A stretch of DNA of 42,308 nucleotides from Gammaproteobacteria bacterium. GTDB taxonomy: Bacteria; Pseudomonadota; Gammaproteobacteria; S012-40. This document shows positions 8,739-41,644 of the stretch, in pieces (within the stretch, counting starts at the first letter, position 1; the number at the start of each line of letters is the position of its first letter). The DNA lies in the NCBI GenBank assembly GCA_027021445.1, contig JALUUH010000079.1:1-42308 (forward strand), given 5' to 3'. A program made the position numbers and the translations under genes. Below the pieces are notes generated by a model. That model saw nothing but the letters and a program-made list of their open reading frames with translations. It did not search any database and had not been told where the DNA came from.

Positions 8739-8851
8739 TTCGACTAAATGAGGCGAATCGAATATTGAACATATTTAACGAATTTAATCGGAAAATCTGA
8801 TCACCATGGATTGATCGCAGTAGGTCAGTCTGTTCTCGGACAGGCTCCTAG
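8739..8851. repeat. Truncated copy of the MITE-like element
   Basis: From TTCGACTAAATGAGGCGAAT to CTGTTCTCGGACAGGCTCCTAG this stretch matches the right half of the element at 24059-24214. It includes the shared core ATTTAACGAATTTAATCGGAAAATC and GATTGATCGCAGTAGG. It carries about 14 additional bases in the middle. The left terminal repeat is missing; the left break lies upstream of the GyrI-like gene. Confidence 0.75.
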
Positions 8852-8940
8852 GGCGGTTTCCCCCTGCGTTCACATTCATATATTTTTCCTAAATTTACTG
8901 CGTGCCTTAAATGGTAACCATACAATTATACTCTTTGCCT

Positions 8941-11640: not shown

Positions 11641-11690
11641 CCTAAAATCCTCAGTTGGACGACATAAAGAGTGCGCTTAACAGTAGGATT

Positions 11691-11963
11691 CTAGGATTCT
11701 TCTTCATTGAACTTATTGTCGACCAATTGCTTTATTTCTTCAAAAGCATGTTCTTCATCGGCGCCGTTTAATGTCACTCCTAGTTCAGTACCTTTGGAAG
11801 CGGCTAACATCATTATGCCCATAATGCTTTTGCCATTCACGCTACGTTCGCCGCGTATTAGCTTAATATCGCACTCGAATTTGGAAGCCAAGGTGACAAA
11901 TTTAGCAGCCGCTCGTGCGTGCAGTCCCAGTTTGTTAATGATGTGTATTTTTCGCCTGATCAT
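11691..11963 (-). CDS. ptsO: HPr-family phosphocarrier (NPr)
   Basis: This 90-residue HPr-like protein keeps the phosphorylatable His15 in GLHARAAAKF and a Ser at position 46 in NGKSIMGIMMLAA. In nitrogen PTS systems NPr passes phosphate from EI-Ntr (PtsP, not in this window) to PtsN. Ser46 is the site used by HPr kinase in other bacteria, and an hprK gene lies three genes upstream, so both modes of phosphorylation are plausible. It follows the EIIA gene by 19 bases and precedes mgtE. Confidence 0.93.
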   Translation of the reverse strand: MIRRKIHIINKLGLHARAAAKFVTLASKFECDIKLIRGERSVNGKSIMGIMMLAASKGTELGVTLNGADEEHAFEEIKQLVDNKFNEEES

Positions 11964-24058: not shown

Positions 24059-24214
24059 TAGGAGCCTGTCCGAGAACAGCGATCGTCACGAGGGCAAACC
24101 ATTTTGAGTCAGATTTTTCGACTCAATGAGGCGAATATTTAACGAATTTAATCGGAAAATCGGGCCACAATAGATTGATCGCAGTAGGCCAATCTGTTCT
24201 CGGACAAGCTCCTA
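24059..24214. mobile_element. Complete MITE-like element with 22-bp terminal inverted repeats
   Basis: The left end CTAGGAGCCTGTCCGAGAACAG and the right end CTGTTCTCGGACAAGCTCCTAG are inverted copies with one mismatch. The 156-bp interior has no ORF. Part of the interior and the right end recur at 8739-8851. The outermost CTAG may be a palindromic target site or a 4-bp duplication. The element was presumably moved by an IS with matching ends elsewhere in the genome. Its right CTAG supplies the TAG stop codon of the srkA gene. Confidence 0.8.
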
Positions 24215-25216
24215 GGCAGCAAACAACTCCAATGGAGGCTCATCCATAATAGCAAGTTGCTCTTTGAGGATATTAATTTGCTCTTCCCAATAACGCGGGG
24301 TATTGAACCACGGAAAGTTTTGCTGAAAGGCAGGATCAACCCAGCGGCGCGCAAGCCATGCAGAATAGCTTAACAAGCGGATGCTTCGTAACGCTTCAAT
24401 GACGATCAACTCTAGGGAATCAAATTCAAAAAACTCCCTATAACCTTCAATCAATGGAACCAGCTGTGATTCCATTTCATGCCGCTCACCCGACAATAAC
24501 ATCCACAAATCCTGTATAGCCGGCCCCATTATGCAATCATCAAAATCGACAAAATGCGGGCCATTGGATGTCCATAGAATATTACCCGGATGACAATCCC
24601 CGTGAAGTCTAATCGATCGTAGATGACCCGCTATTGCAAAGATGGTTTTTACTCTTTCAATAACATGTTGCACAGTAGACGAATAAGAATCGATGACATG
24701 AGAGGGTAGAAAGTCACCATCCATAATGAATCGAAATGATTTTTCAGCATGTGAAGCTATCGTCAACTCAGCTCTAAATTTAAACTCAGACAACGCACCA
24801 ACCGCATGGATACGCGCAATAAACCGGCCTAACAGCCGCAGGTTGTCAAAATTATCTAGTTCTGGCCAACGCCCCACCTTCCGTTTATATAATGCAAAAC
24901 GGAAACCTTGGTGACAATATAAGGTTTTACCTTGCGAACTAGCATTAGGAGCAATAACAGGAATTTCTCGGTCCGCAAGCTCAATAGAAAAAGCGTGTTC
25001 TTCCAGTATTGCATCATCACTCCAGCGTTCAGGCCGATAAAATTTTGCAATAATAGGATCATTATCTTCAACACCTATTTGATAAACACGATTTTCATAG
25101 CTATTTAAAGCGAGTAACTGGCCATTACAACTTATACCTTCTGCTTCGATGGCGGCTAATACGGCATCGGGAATCAAGCGTGAATAAGGGTGCTCGTTCG
25201 CTGTTATTTCATTCAC
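24212..25216 (-). CDS. srkA: Stress response kinase A (SrkA/RdoA/YihE)
   Basis: This 334-residue APH-like protein kinase has the catalytic loop HGDCHPGNILW (residues 205-215) with Asp207 and Asn212, the metal-binding HFVDFDD (221-227), and the N-lobe IIAKFYRPERW with its Lys. SrkA protects E. coli from envelope and oxidative stress and phosphorylates proteins on Ser or Thr. The start is GTG. The stop codon TAG lies within the terminal CTAG of the MITE-like element, so the last residues (LELFAA) may not be ancestral. Confidence 0.93.
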   Translation of the reverse strand: MNEITANEHPYSRLIPDAVLAAIEAEGISCNGQLLALNSYENRVYQIGVEDNDPIIAKFYRPERWSDDAILEEHAFSIELADREIPVIAPNASSQGKTLYCHQGFRFALYKRKVGRWPELDNFDNLRLLGRFIARIHAVGALSEFKFRAELTIASHAEKSFRFIMDGDFLPSHVIDSYSSTVQHVIERVKTIFAIAGHLRSIRLHGDCHPGNILWTSNGPHFVDFDDCIMGPAIQDLWMLLSGERHEMESQLVPLIEGYREFFEFDSLELIVIEALRSIRLLSYSAWLARRWVDPAFQQNFPWFNTPRYWEEQINILKEQLAIMDEPPLELFAA

Positions 25217-33743: not shown

Positions 33744-33943
33744 TCCGAGAATCCGTTCCACCTGAAATTGCTGGAAACAGTGCATGGCATTGGTGTTATT
33801 TTACTACTGACCCTACTTTACAAGATAGGAAATATTCGCCAATTTGAAAGTGTACAGAATTTCGCTTCCTATTCCCGACGGGTAAAATGCAAAGCGGAGT
33901 CCACAGAAAAAGCGATGACACACCAGCTTGGGCGCTGTATTTA
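33744..33943 (+). pseudogene. IS110-family transposase remnant
   Basis: The frame reads PFHLKLLETVHGIGVILLLTLLYKIGNIRQFESVQNFASYSRRVKC. It matches the C-terminal transposase_20 pattern of IS110/IS1111 enzymes (lL.TvpGIG...alTll.EIGDI.RF.s...faSY). The N-terminal DEDD catalytic part is absent, and the end runs into a short dispersed repeat. It starts directly after the hemE stop in the same frame. It is a relic and cannot be active. Confidence 0.6.
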
Positions 33944-34017
33944 CTTGAACCTAGACTCCGCAGTTGACCGTTCTTACCAGGCGGTAACTCGCTGAAATAT
34001 CGAAATTAACTGCGGAT
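33944..34017. repeat. Short dispersed repeat, copy 1
   Basis: CTTGAACCTAGACTCCGCAG through AAATTAACTGCGGAT recurs with changes at 40076-40162. It has TCCGCAGTT and AACTGCGGA as inverted ends and an inner TTACC/GGTAA hairpin. Read on the plus strand it encodes LNLDSAVDRSYQAVTR and a stop, which forms the tail of the IS110 relic frame. It resembles a small non-autonomous or REP-like element. Confidence 0.65.
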
Positions 34018-34024
34018 TTTAGGA

Positions 34025-34792
34025 TTATCCAGTGTGCTTCCTTTCTGTTGTTTTTAAGACTCTTTCCCCATTATGAGTAATGAAAGACCAGATACGCTCA
34101 TCGTGTTTTTTAATCCCATCAAGTAACTCTTCTACACTCGCCATGCAAGGCTGCCGCATACCAAAACAATCCACCATCGCTCCCACTGGGGTAAATTTAA
34201 TTCCACTCCGTGCTAATAAGTTAATGAGCTGTGGCTCCATTAGCGCAAACACATGCGTTACACCTGACTCGGTTGCCATATTCATTATTGCTTTAAACAA
34301 TCCCAATGTAATTTGCGAACAATGTCTTTTCTCTCTATGCCTTTCTGTAAATGATAGATTAGGGCTAATGCCATGGGCATTATTTTTCTCCTCTATACGT
34401 CGACGAAAATCCTTTGACACGGCAAGTCTTGATATTTCACCTTTAACTCGTGACGACACCTGCCACTGCTGGTCCCTGCTTTTTCGTCGCAATATATGAA
34501 ATCGCTCAGTGGGTAAAATTTTTTCAGTGACTACATTGCTTGATTTTGGGTTAATAATGAGCCGCACAGTTGCGACGCTAATTCTTGTTTTTTTATGAGT
34601 GAGTAGAGCATGTAAAGATCTCTGATCAAATTCGTCTGATTCTTTTTCTGCTAAATAAAGAGAGGAGTCAAATATATGTTGTTCGTCACAAAATACTTGG
34701 TAACGCAAAGCTTGACACTTTTCAACAAGCCGTGCTGAATTTCCAATTTCGGTTTCAAAATAGTTATCAAATTGATTGAAGCTCATAGTCAT
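34025..34792 (-). CDS. PEP-CTERM/exosortase system-associated acyltransferase
   Basis: This 255-residue protein starts at ATG 34792, where GGTGGA precedes it; the track adds 17 codons. It has an autoinducer-synthase-like N-terminal acyltransferase fold (ARLVEKCQALRYQVFCDEQHIFD) and VATVRLIINP. It then has EISRLAVSKDFRRRIEEKN and GLFKAIMNMATESGVTHVFALMEPQLINLLARSGIKFTPVGAMVDCFGMRQP. This is the pattern of the acyltransferase found with PEP-CTERM/exosortase systems. Its substrate is unproven. No exosortase or PEP-CTERM protein is visible in the window. It is divergent from the second PstS-like module. Confidence 0.82.
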   Translation of the reverse strand: MTMSFNQFDNYFETEIGNSARLVEKCQALRYQVFCDEQHIFDSSLYLAEKESDEFDQRSLHALLTHKKTRISVATVRLIINPKSSNVVTEKILPTERFHILRRKSRDQQWQVSSRVKGEISRLAVSKDFRRRIEEKNNAHGISPNLSFTERHREKRHCSQITLGLFKAIMNMATESGVTHVFALMEPQLINLLARSGIKFTPVGAMVDCFGMRQPCMASVEELLDGIKKHDERIWSFITHNGERVLKTTERKHTG

Positions 34793-34948
34793 AAGGAATT
34801 CCACCGAAATAGATAAGCTCAGCATGTTGTCGCAACACGACAAATTAATTCAAAACATGCTGAAAGTTAATGTTTTTTCTAATTAAATTTAGTCAATTGT
34901 TTAATTCCAGCTATAATTAAATTATTCGAAATATTTTTAATTAATTGC

Positions 34949-39569: not shown

Positions 39570-40127
39570 ATGCCCTCGATGCTGTCTTTAATTCATAAAT
39601 ATATTCAATTTGCCACCCTAGTCAATCAAGTTATTGGTAAATCCATCCCTTGGCTATGCTTACTGATGGTATTAATAACCTTTACGGTTGTTGTGCTTAG
39701 ATATGCTTTTAATTTTGGCAATATTGCTTTGCAAGAATCTATAATCTACATGCATGCTTCGGTTTTTATGTTAGCAGCTGCTTACACATTAAATCGTGAG
39801 CAACATGTTCGCGTGGACATCTTCTATCATAAATTTACCAAACATCGAAAAGCCTGGGTTAATATTGTGGGCACACTCTTGTTCCTACTCCCGTTATCTG
39901 GATTTATTTTATGGAGCAGCTCAGAATATGTAATCACGTCTTGGACACTGCGAGAAGGCTCACGCGAAGCCGGAGGCTTGCCTTATGTCTATCTACTCAA
40001 AAGCAATATTCTCGCATTCGCAATCTTGTTAATAATTCAGGGCTTATCCGACCTTTTTAAAAACATCTTAATTATCTTAAACCTAGACTCTCCAGTTGAC
40101 CGCTCTCGCCAAGTGGTAACTCACTGA
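39570..40127 (+). CDS. dctQ: TRAP transporter small permease DctQ
   Basis: This 185-residue inner-membrane protein has four hydrophobic helices and the family motifs LRYAFNFGNIALQESIIYMHASVFMLAAAYTLNREQHVRVDIFYH and GREAGGLPYVYLLK-like SREAGGLPYVYLLKS. It pairs with DctM to import organic acids or other anions with a periplasmic DctP protein. The last residues (LNLDSPVDRSRQVVTH) are encoded by the dispersed repeat, not by ancestral dctQ sequence. A TATAAT box lies in the short gap upstream. Confidence 0.92.
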   Translation: MPSMLSLIHKYIQFATLVNQVIGKSIPWLCLLMVLITFTVVVLRYAFNFGNIALQESIIYMHASVFMLAAAYTLNREQHVRVDIFYHKFTKHRKAWVNIVGTLLFLLPLSGFILWSSSEYVITSWTLREGSREAGGLPYVYLLKSNILAFAILLIIQGLSDLFKNILIILNLDSPVDRSRQVVTH

Positions 40128-40162
40128 AATGGTAAAATTAACGATGCGTATTACTGCGGATT
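40076..40162. repeat. Short dispersed repeat, copy 2
   Basis: ACCTAGACTCTCCAGTTGAC, GGTAACTCACTGAAAT and ACTGCGGATT match the copy at 33944-34017. A 13-base insert lies near the right end and the left inverted end is degraded. It overlaps the 3' end of dctQ and supplies its TGA stop. It fills most of the 128-base gap between dctQ and dctM, genes that usually abut or overlap. Confidence 0.65.
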
Positions 40163-40255
40163 CCCGATTAAAGTTTGAAAACGATCAATGCACCACTCCA
40201 ACATCGCCACAAAATACTCCCTAAACCTTAAAATCAATCAACAGACAAAAAAGCT

Positions 40256-41644
40256 ATGCTCGAAGAATTCATGCCCCTCATTATGTTCGCCACTGTCTGT
40301 GGAGTCCTGTTACTCGGCTATCCCGTTGCCTTTACCCTAGCAGGCACGTCCCTCGCATTTGCTTGGCTTGGCTGGGAAATGGAGATATTTGACGAAGACT
40401 TTCTCTTTGCCTTACCTAGTCGTTTATACGGAATCATGGTTAACCAAATTCTAATTGCCGTACCCTTGTTTGTATTTATGGGTGTCTTGCTGGAAAAATC
40501 AAAAATTGCCGAAAATCTTCTTGAAAACATGGGCAAGCTATTCGGCAAGATGCGGGGAGGCCTAGGTATCTCGGTAACACTTGTCGGCATGTTGCTGGCC
40601 GCCAGCACCGGCATTGTTGGCGCTACTGTCGTCACGATGGGCTTACTTGCTTTGCCAACGATGTTACGGCGCGGTTATGATCCTGCTATTTCCGCCGGAA
40701 CTATTTGCGCATCTGGAACCCTAGGGCAAATTATCCCACCTTCGATTATTCTGGTATTGCTTGGCGATGTTTTGTCATCCGCTTATCAGCAAGCACAACT
40801 CGATATGGGAATTTTTTCACCAGAAACCCTATCTGTAGGCGATTTATTTACCGGAGCACTCATACCTGGCCTACTACTTGTGGCCTTATACATTACTTAT
40901 TTACTTATCATAGCCATTATCAAACCAACAGCTATGCCTGCGTTGGCGGACACTGAATATGATTCTAATAACGACTTTAAAATCTATGACTTATTAAAGG
41001 GCTTAGCCCCACCGCTACTACTGATCTTTTTCGTATTGGGGTCAATTTTAGCTGGAATAGCAACTCCCACCGAAGCCGCCTCTGTCGGAGCAATGGGCGC
41101 TCTATTGCTCACATTTATCAACAAGCAATTAACCAAAAAAATCTTAACTGAAGTCGTTCAGCAAACCACCTTAGTAAGCAGCATGGTTTTCATGATCCTA
41201 ATTGGCGCATCGGTTTTTTCTCTTGTATTTAGAGGATTCGGAGGAGATGAACTCGTTCATGAATTACTTAATGATCTTCCAGGGGAAACTTTTGGGGCCA
41301 TAGTTGTTGTCATGTTAATCATGTTTCTGCTTGGATTCGTTCTCGATTTTATTGAAATCACTTTTGTGGTAGTCCCTATTGTTGGCCCTGTTTTATTAGC
41401 GATGGGCGTAGACCCTGTGTGGTTAGGGATTATGATTGCACTGAATTTGCAAACCTCTTTTTTAACACCTCCCTTTGGCTTTGCATTATTTTATTTGCGT
41501 GGCGTTGCAAAAAAATCGTTGACGACACTGCAGATATATAAAGGCGTTACACCTTTTATCATTATTCAATTATTCGTTTTAGCAGTCATTGGATTTTGGC
41601 CTGAATTAGCAACATGGTTGCCAAGCGTGATGAACGGAGAATAA
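40256..41644 (+). CDS. dctM: TRAP transporter large permease DctM
   Basis: This 462-residue polytopic membrane protein has the DctM motifs LLLGYPVAFTLAGTSL, VPLFVFMGVLLEKSKIAENLLENMGKLFGKMRGGLGISVTLVGMLLAASTGIVGATVVTMG, GTLGQIIPPSIILVLLGD and the late LQTSFLTPPFGFALFYLRGV. It forms the transport channel with DctQ. A long cytosolic or periplasmic loop (DTEYDSNNDFKIYD) lies mid-protein. No dctP is in the window on either side, so the binding protein must be encoded elsewhere or beyond the edge. Confidence 0.96.
   Translation: MLEEFMPLIMFATVCGVLLLGYPVAFTLAGTSLAFAWLGWEMEIFDEDFLFALPSRLYGIMVNQILIAVPLFVFMGVLLEKSKIAENLLENMGKLFGKMRGGLGISVTLVGMLLAASTGIVGATVVTMGLLALPTMLRRGYDPAISAGTICASGTLGQIIPPSIILVLLGDVLSSAYQQAQLDMGIFSPETLSVGDLFTGALIPGLLLVALYITYLLIIAIIKPTAMPALADTEYDSNNDFKIYDLLKGLAPPLLLIFFVLGSILAGIATPTEAASVGAMGALLLTFINKQLTKKILTEVVQQTTLVSSMVFMILIGASVFSLVFRGFGGDELVHELLNDLPGETFGAIVVVMLIMFLLGFVLDFIEITFVVVPIVGPVLLAMGVDPVWLGIMIALNLQTSFLTPPFGFALFYLRGVAKKSLTTLQIYKGVTPFIIIQLFVLAVIGFWPELATWLPSVMNGE

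Follow-up and report, generated by a model that had tools for sequence, protein, structure and literature searches.

The window, 42,308 nucleotides of a gammaproteobacterial contig, carries adjacent genes for the small (dctQ) and large (dctM) subunits of a TRAP transporter, and the 3' end of dctQ runs into a short repeat that provides the last ~15 residues and the stop codon of the protein (Table 1). The dctQ frame reads ...LNLDSPVDRSRQVVTH-stop, with the stop at 40125-40127 inside the repeat; the first L of this tail and part of its N codon are host sequence. A second copy of the repeat lies behind a reading frame of IS110 type, which reads ...LNLDSAVDRSYQAVTR-stop and likewise ends inside the repeat, at 33993-33995. 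Within the genome's own sequence, 33939-34010 and 40071-40142 are 79% identical (E = 5.5e-12). The original prediction that one repeat ends both frames in a single register and supplies both stops is borne out, with the limits of the copies corrected from 40076-40162 to 40082-40167 and from 33944-34017 to 33950-34023. It had also taken the two as unrelated reading frames with the same tail. Both do read into the repeat; the IS110 frame, however, in which the Transposase_20 match covers only profile positions 2-55 of 87, is a transposase remnant and no gene. This remnant begins directly after the hemE stop codon, in frame with it, and is open from there without a start of its own.

Table 1. Coordinates of the dctQ-dctM locus and of the repeat copies in the window
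Feature	Position	Strand	Basis or remark
dctQ, small TRAP-transporter subunit	39570..40127	+	PF04290 E = 2.1e-17, residues 33-164
86-bp MITE copy in dctQ 3' end	40082-40167	+	TIR scan, genome-wide matches, alignment A1
Left TIR of dctQ copy, CCTAGACTCTCCAGTTGA	40082..40099	+	3 mismatches vs consensus
Right TIR remnant of dctQ copy, ACTGCGGATTCCCGA	40153..40167	-	sequence
Left TTAAA of dctQ copy	40077..40081	.	target copy or element-borne
Right TTAAA of dctQ copy	40168..40172	.	target-site duplication, exactly at expected element end
Displaced original dctQ 3' end (fossil tail)	40173..40224	+	joined-flank translation
dctM, large TRAP subunit	40256..41644	+	PF06808 E = 4e-81
74-bp MITE copy, both TIRs well preserved	33950-34023	+	TIR pairing; RNA hairpin
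IS110-family transposase remnant running into second MITE copy	33744..33949	+	PF02371 E = 1.8e-7, partial; NF033542 E = 1.1e-5, below its cut-off
Third element, same TIR type, 55 bp	11641-11695	.	sequence; TIR match

The repeat is dispersed, as first noted: the 94-bp unit has 48 matches within its own genome (G000, a 2.65-Mb assembly that is 67% complete), about eight of which share internal sequence while the remainder match at the ends only. The two ends are inverted relative to one another and define a terminal inverted repeat (TIR) of ~18 bp with the consensus CCTARAWTCCGCAGTTGA. At up to 3 mismatches, the consensus finds 98 matches in the 2.65 Mb, compared with 4 for a reversed control, and the 288 kb around the matches contain 22 inverted pairs spanning 36-322 bp. 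Exact 5-bp target duplications flank 6 of 17 well-paired elements, where 1.1 are expected on shuffling and six were reached in 0 of 2000 shuffles. The duplicated flanks include ATAAT, TTAAA, ATTAT, ATCAT and TTCAA, and the flanks of the 17 well-matched pairs give an AT-rich target consensus, WTNAW. With 18-bp TIRs, target duplications at the level of the family and dozens of small copies (36-322 bp) that carry no transposase, the repeat is a family of miniature inverted-repeat elements (MITEs). The earlier note had described the element without recognizing that it is a MITE bounded by TIRs. These TIRs are also present in the same-family genomes G002 (104 matches), G005 and G011, and have a patchy distribution in the rest of the class; a similarity search of plasmids gave no match.

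At individual copies, the duplication evidence is uneven. The copy at 33950-34023 is flanked by TTGAA and ATTAT and thus has no target duplication. The dctQ copy lies between two TTAAA pentamers, a motif found at 0.25% of window positions, but the left TTRAA is present in all eight subfamily copies of alignment A1, including that of dctQ, so the pair is weaker evidence for duplication than it looks. In this short subfamily, TTRAA precedes CCTA in 8/8 copies although the targets of the wider family are varied WTNAW sites, and the constant motif reflects either element-borne sequence or a stricter choice of target.

The TIRs point to the IS1380 family as the source of mobility. In genome G062 (locus L210), the same TIR type flanks an IS1380-family transposase in an element of ~1.7 kb (478 aa; PF13701 above cut-off; NF033539 E = 7e-36, below that model's cut-off), and in G011 (L211) it flanks another, with ATCAA on both sides. 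Both transposases are of ordinary length, and the MITEs therefore share their TIRs with autonomous IS1380 elements. In the 67%-complete genome of the window itself, no intact IS1380 bounded by such TIRs was found; the PF13701 matches there lack them. ISEcp1, which has the inverted repeats CCTAGATTCTACGT / ACGTGGAATTTAGG and makes a 5-bp duplication (PMC7864471), resembles the present family in its ends (CCTAGATTC.. / CCTAAATTC..) and in the 5-bp duplications (PMC7864471). It differs in being autonomous with a transposase, whereas the paired elements here span 36-322 bp and have none. We infer that the MITE family is a non-autonomous IS1380-type element that was moved in the past, in trans, by an IS1380-family transposase.

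The sequence around the dctQ copy retains what appears to be the earlier gene end. When the flanks are joined without the element (40065-40081 + 40173-40224), the site would read ...ATCTTAAAGTTTGAAAACGATCAATGC..., giving an open frame ...FKNILIILKFENDQCTTPTSPQNTP-stop that ends in ...KFENDQCTTPTSPQNTP-stop at 40222-40224, 31 bp before dctM. The restored tail is 20 aa after FKNIL, a typical length, and the fact that the frame is open once the element is removed argues that the present tail was acquired. A search of this fossil tail against the DctQ tails of relatives gave no significant similarity, those tails being themselves variable.

Comparison with relatives leads to the same conclusion. 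The original prediction took an identical tail in DctQ homologues as the sign of an ancestral end. Among 60 other DctQ sequences, ranging from same-family genomes to named Halomonadaceae (33 are from named genomes such as those of Onishia, Halomonas and Vreelandella), none has LNLD or VDRS in its tail, and the dctQ genes of G002, G005 and G011 end free of an element although the TIR family is present in all three genomes; together these observations indicate acquisition. It is thus extremely improbable that LNLDSPVDRS is the native C-terminus of DctQ and the other copy a captured gene end. In keeping with that explanation, the tail forms an open frame and has an ordinary length, with 18 aa after FKNIL compared with mostly 6-22 in relatives, but it is missing from all of the compared sequences and recurs elsewhere in the genome together with TIRs, and the explanation is refuted. 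The dctQ-dctM gap is also enlarged, as predicted. It is 128 bp here, while the two genes normally overlap (median -4 bp in 51 relatives with >40% identity), and only 2 of the 51 have a gap above 11 bp (50 and 139 bp).

We therefore favor, with a probability of about 0.88, the insertion of an IS1380-type MITE near the 3' end of dctQ, where it now supplies the tail and the stop. In this history, a MITE copy, presumably mobilized in trans by a transposase of the IS1380 family, would have entered a TTAAA ~17 codons short of the dctQ 3' end. The gene would then run into the element in its open register, with ~15 codons translated up to an internal TGA, and the former final codons with their stop (to 40224) would remain downstream, untranslated. 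The separation of dctQ and dctM by 128 bp may have cost the pair its translational coupling. The change was probably neutral and became fixed, since the DctQ domain ends upstream of the inserted element and conservation of the tail across the family is poor. The locus would thus be a clear example of how a mini-transposon can rewrite the C-terminus of a conserved protein while the apparent old end stays readable next to it. It illustrates that an unusual C-terminus in a single genome may consist of mobile DNA and need not reflect function.

The reading frame itself has no special standing. Read from the left TIR, one register of the element stops at once (CC TAG), one stops after six codons (..RS-stop), and the third is open for ~15 codons. 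A NadB-like flavoprotein (..SRIRS-stop) and a Rossmann protein with a weak Pfam match (..PKTRS-stop) end inside a TIR in register 0, and a LuxR-like regulator (..GLT-stop) does so in register 1; dctQ, unlike these three, uses register 2. Because genes that end inside TIRs use all registers, the register shared by the two first-noticed copies is unremarkable, and the claim that it is a property of the element fails. For the same reason, we consider it very unlikely that the element was selected as a coding module that donates a functional peptide tail in one frame, as has been considered for the palindromic elements (RPEs) of Rickettsia. Such a module would account for the common register of the first two copies and for the frame open over ~15 codons, but most elements are intergenic, three other genes end inside TIRs in other frames, and the IS110 frame, one of the first two cases, is what remains of a transposase. 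With registers 0, 0, 1 and 2 represented, there is no preferential insertion into genes in one register of the kind expected of an RPE-like element.

Gene ends are nevertheless overrepresented at the insertion sites. The stop of a gene falls within the target 5-mer or immediately ahead of it at 10 of 98 TIR ends, compared with ~2.4 expected if non-genic WTNAW sites are used at random (binomial tail 1.5e-4). This excess is suggestive only, since each element contributes two ends that are not independent and the genes were called by longest-ORF selection, which replaced a codon-usage score too weak at 41% GC and makes gene-end counts approximate. The excess likely arises because the WTNAW targets frequently include a TAA or TGA, and insertions there are tolerated. 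It is conceivable, if doubtful, that these IS1380-type elements favor stop codons because targets such as TTAAA, TTTAA and TTGAA hold TAA or TGA, and that they have hence repeatedly reset gene 3' ends; the stop lies within the target flank or immediately ahead of it in about 10 genes and in the TIR or element in at least 5 (dctQ and the HPr-like, nadB-like, luxR-like and Rossmann genes). Such a bias would give mini-elements a means, open to testing, of changing protein tails and the spacing of genes in operons.

The enrichment at gene ends would also be consistent with a role in RNA, in which a hairpin in the dctQ-dctM interval would adjust the Q:M ratio or the stability of the mRNA and be retained for that purpose. 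The TIRs of the 33950 copy form a strong hairpin (z = -5.4), whereas the fold predicted for the dctQ copy is no better than those of shuffled sequences (z = +0.25), and an Rfam scan of the window gave no match. A hairpin at 33950 and none at dctQ speaks for an old insertion in decay at dctQ and against an RNA function kept up there, and we regard the regulatory role as very unlikely. With its right TIR worn from TAGG to CCGA and no structure beyond chance, the dctQ copy looks like an old, tolerated insertion.

C-termini supplied by small mobile elements are already known from Coxiella, Erwinia and Rickettsia, and what is new here is the element family. In Coxiella burnetii Dugway, QMITE2 at the 3' end of enhC gives the last 33 residues of EnhC, with the stop just downstream, and other QMITEs overlap several genes at their C-termini, by 1-50 bp (PMC5896051). 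The likeness to dctQ lies in a MITE at a gene 3' end that supplies C-terminal residues, but QMITEs are another element family, of 150-190 bp with 7-11 nt repeats, and IS1380 is not mentioned in that report (PMC5896051). RU-1 lies at the 3' end of the gene for the Erwinia amidase ECA3499, where it eliminates the native stop and extends the C-terminus past the conserved domain (PMC2759123). There too, a small mobile repeat replaces a native stop and adds a tail; RU-1 is a 127-bp enterobacterial RU element and is described as a different family (PMC2759123). The RPEs lie in frame inside many genes and, like the repeat described here, are translated in frame in unrelated genes (review PMC10969869), whereas the present elements are mostly intergenic and their frame is arbitrary.

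The remaining copies add some detail. A 272-aa ORF (34025-34843, minus strand) has its TAA stop within the ATTAT flank of the 33950-34023 element, which places that element between the IS110 remnant and a gene end. An 82-bp direct repeat at 8771-8852 and 24135-24216 (90% identical) is unmatched by the MITE TIR pattern. The third element in the window has the flanks ATCAT and ATTCT, an inexact duplication, and the HPr-like gene beside it (PF00381; 11691-11963, minus strand) ends in ..NEEES-stop, with the TAG taken from the right TIR. Finally, the 104 TIR matches in G002 have at most 1 mismatch and include several regularly spaced inverted pairs (for instance ~160 and ~240 bp), which suggests recent amplification of the TIR family in that genome.
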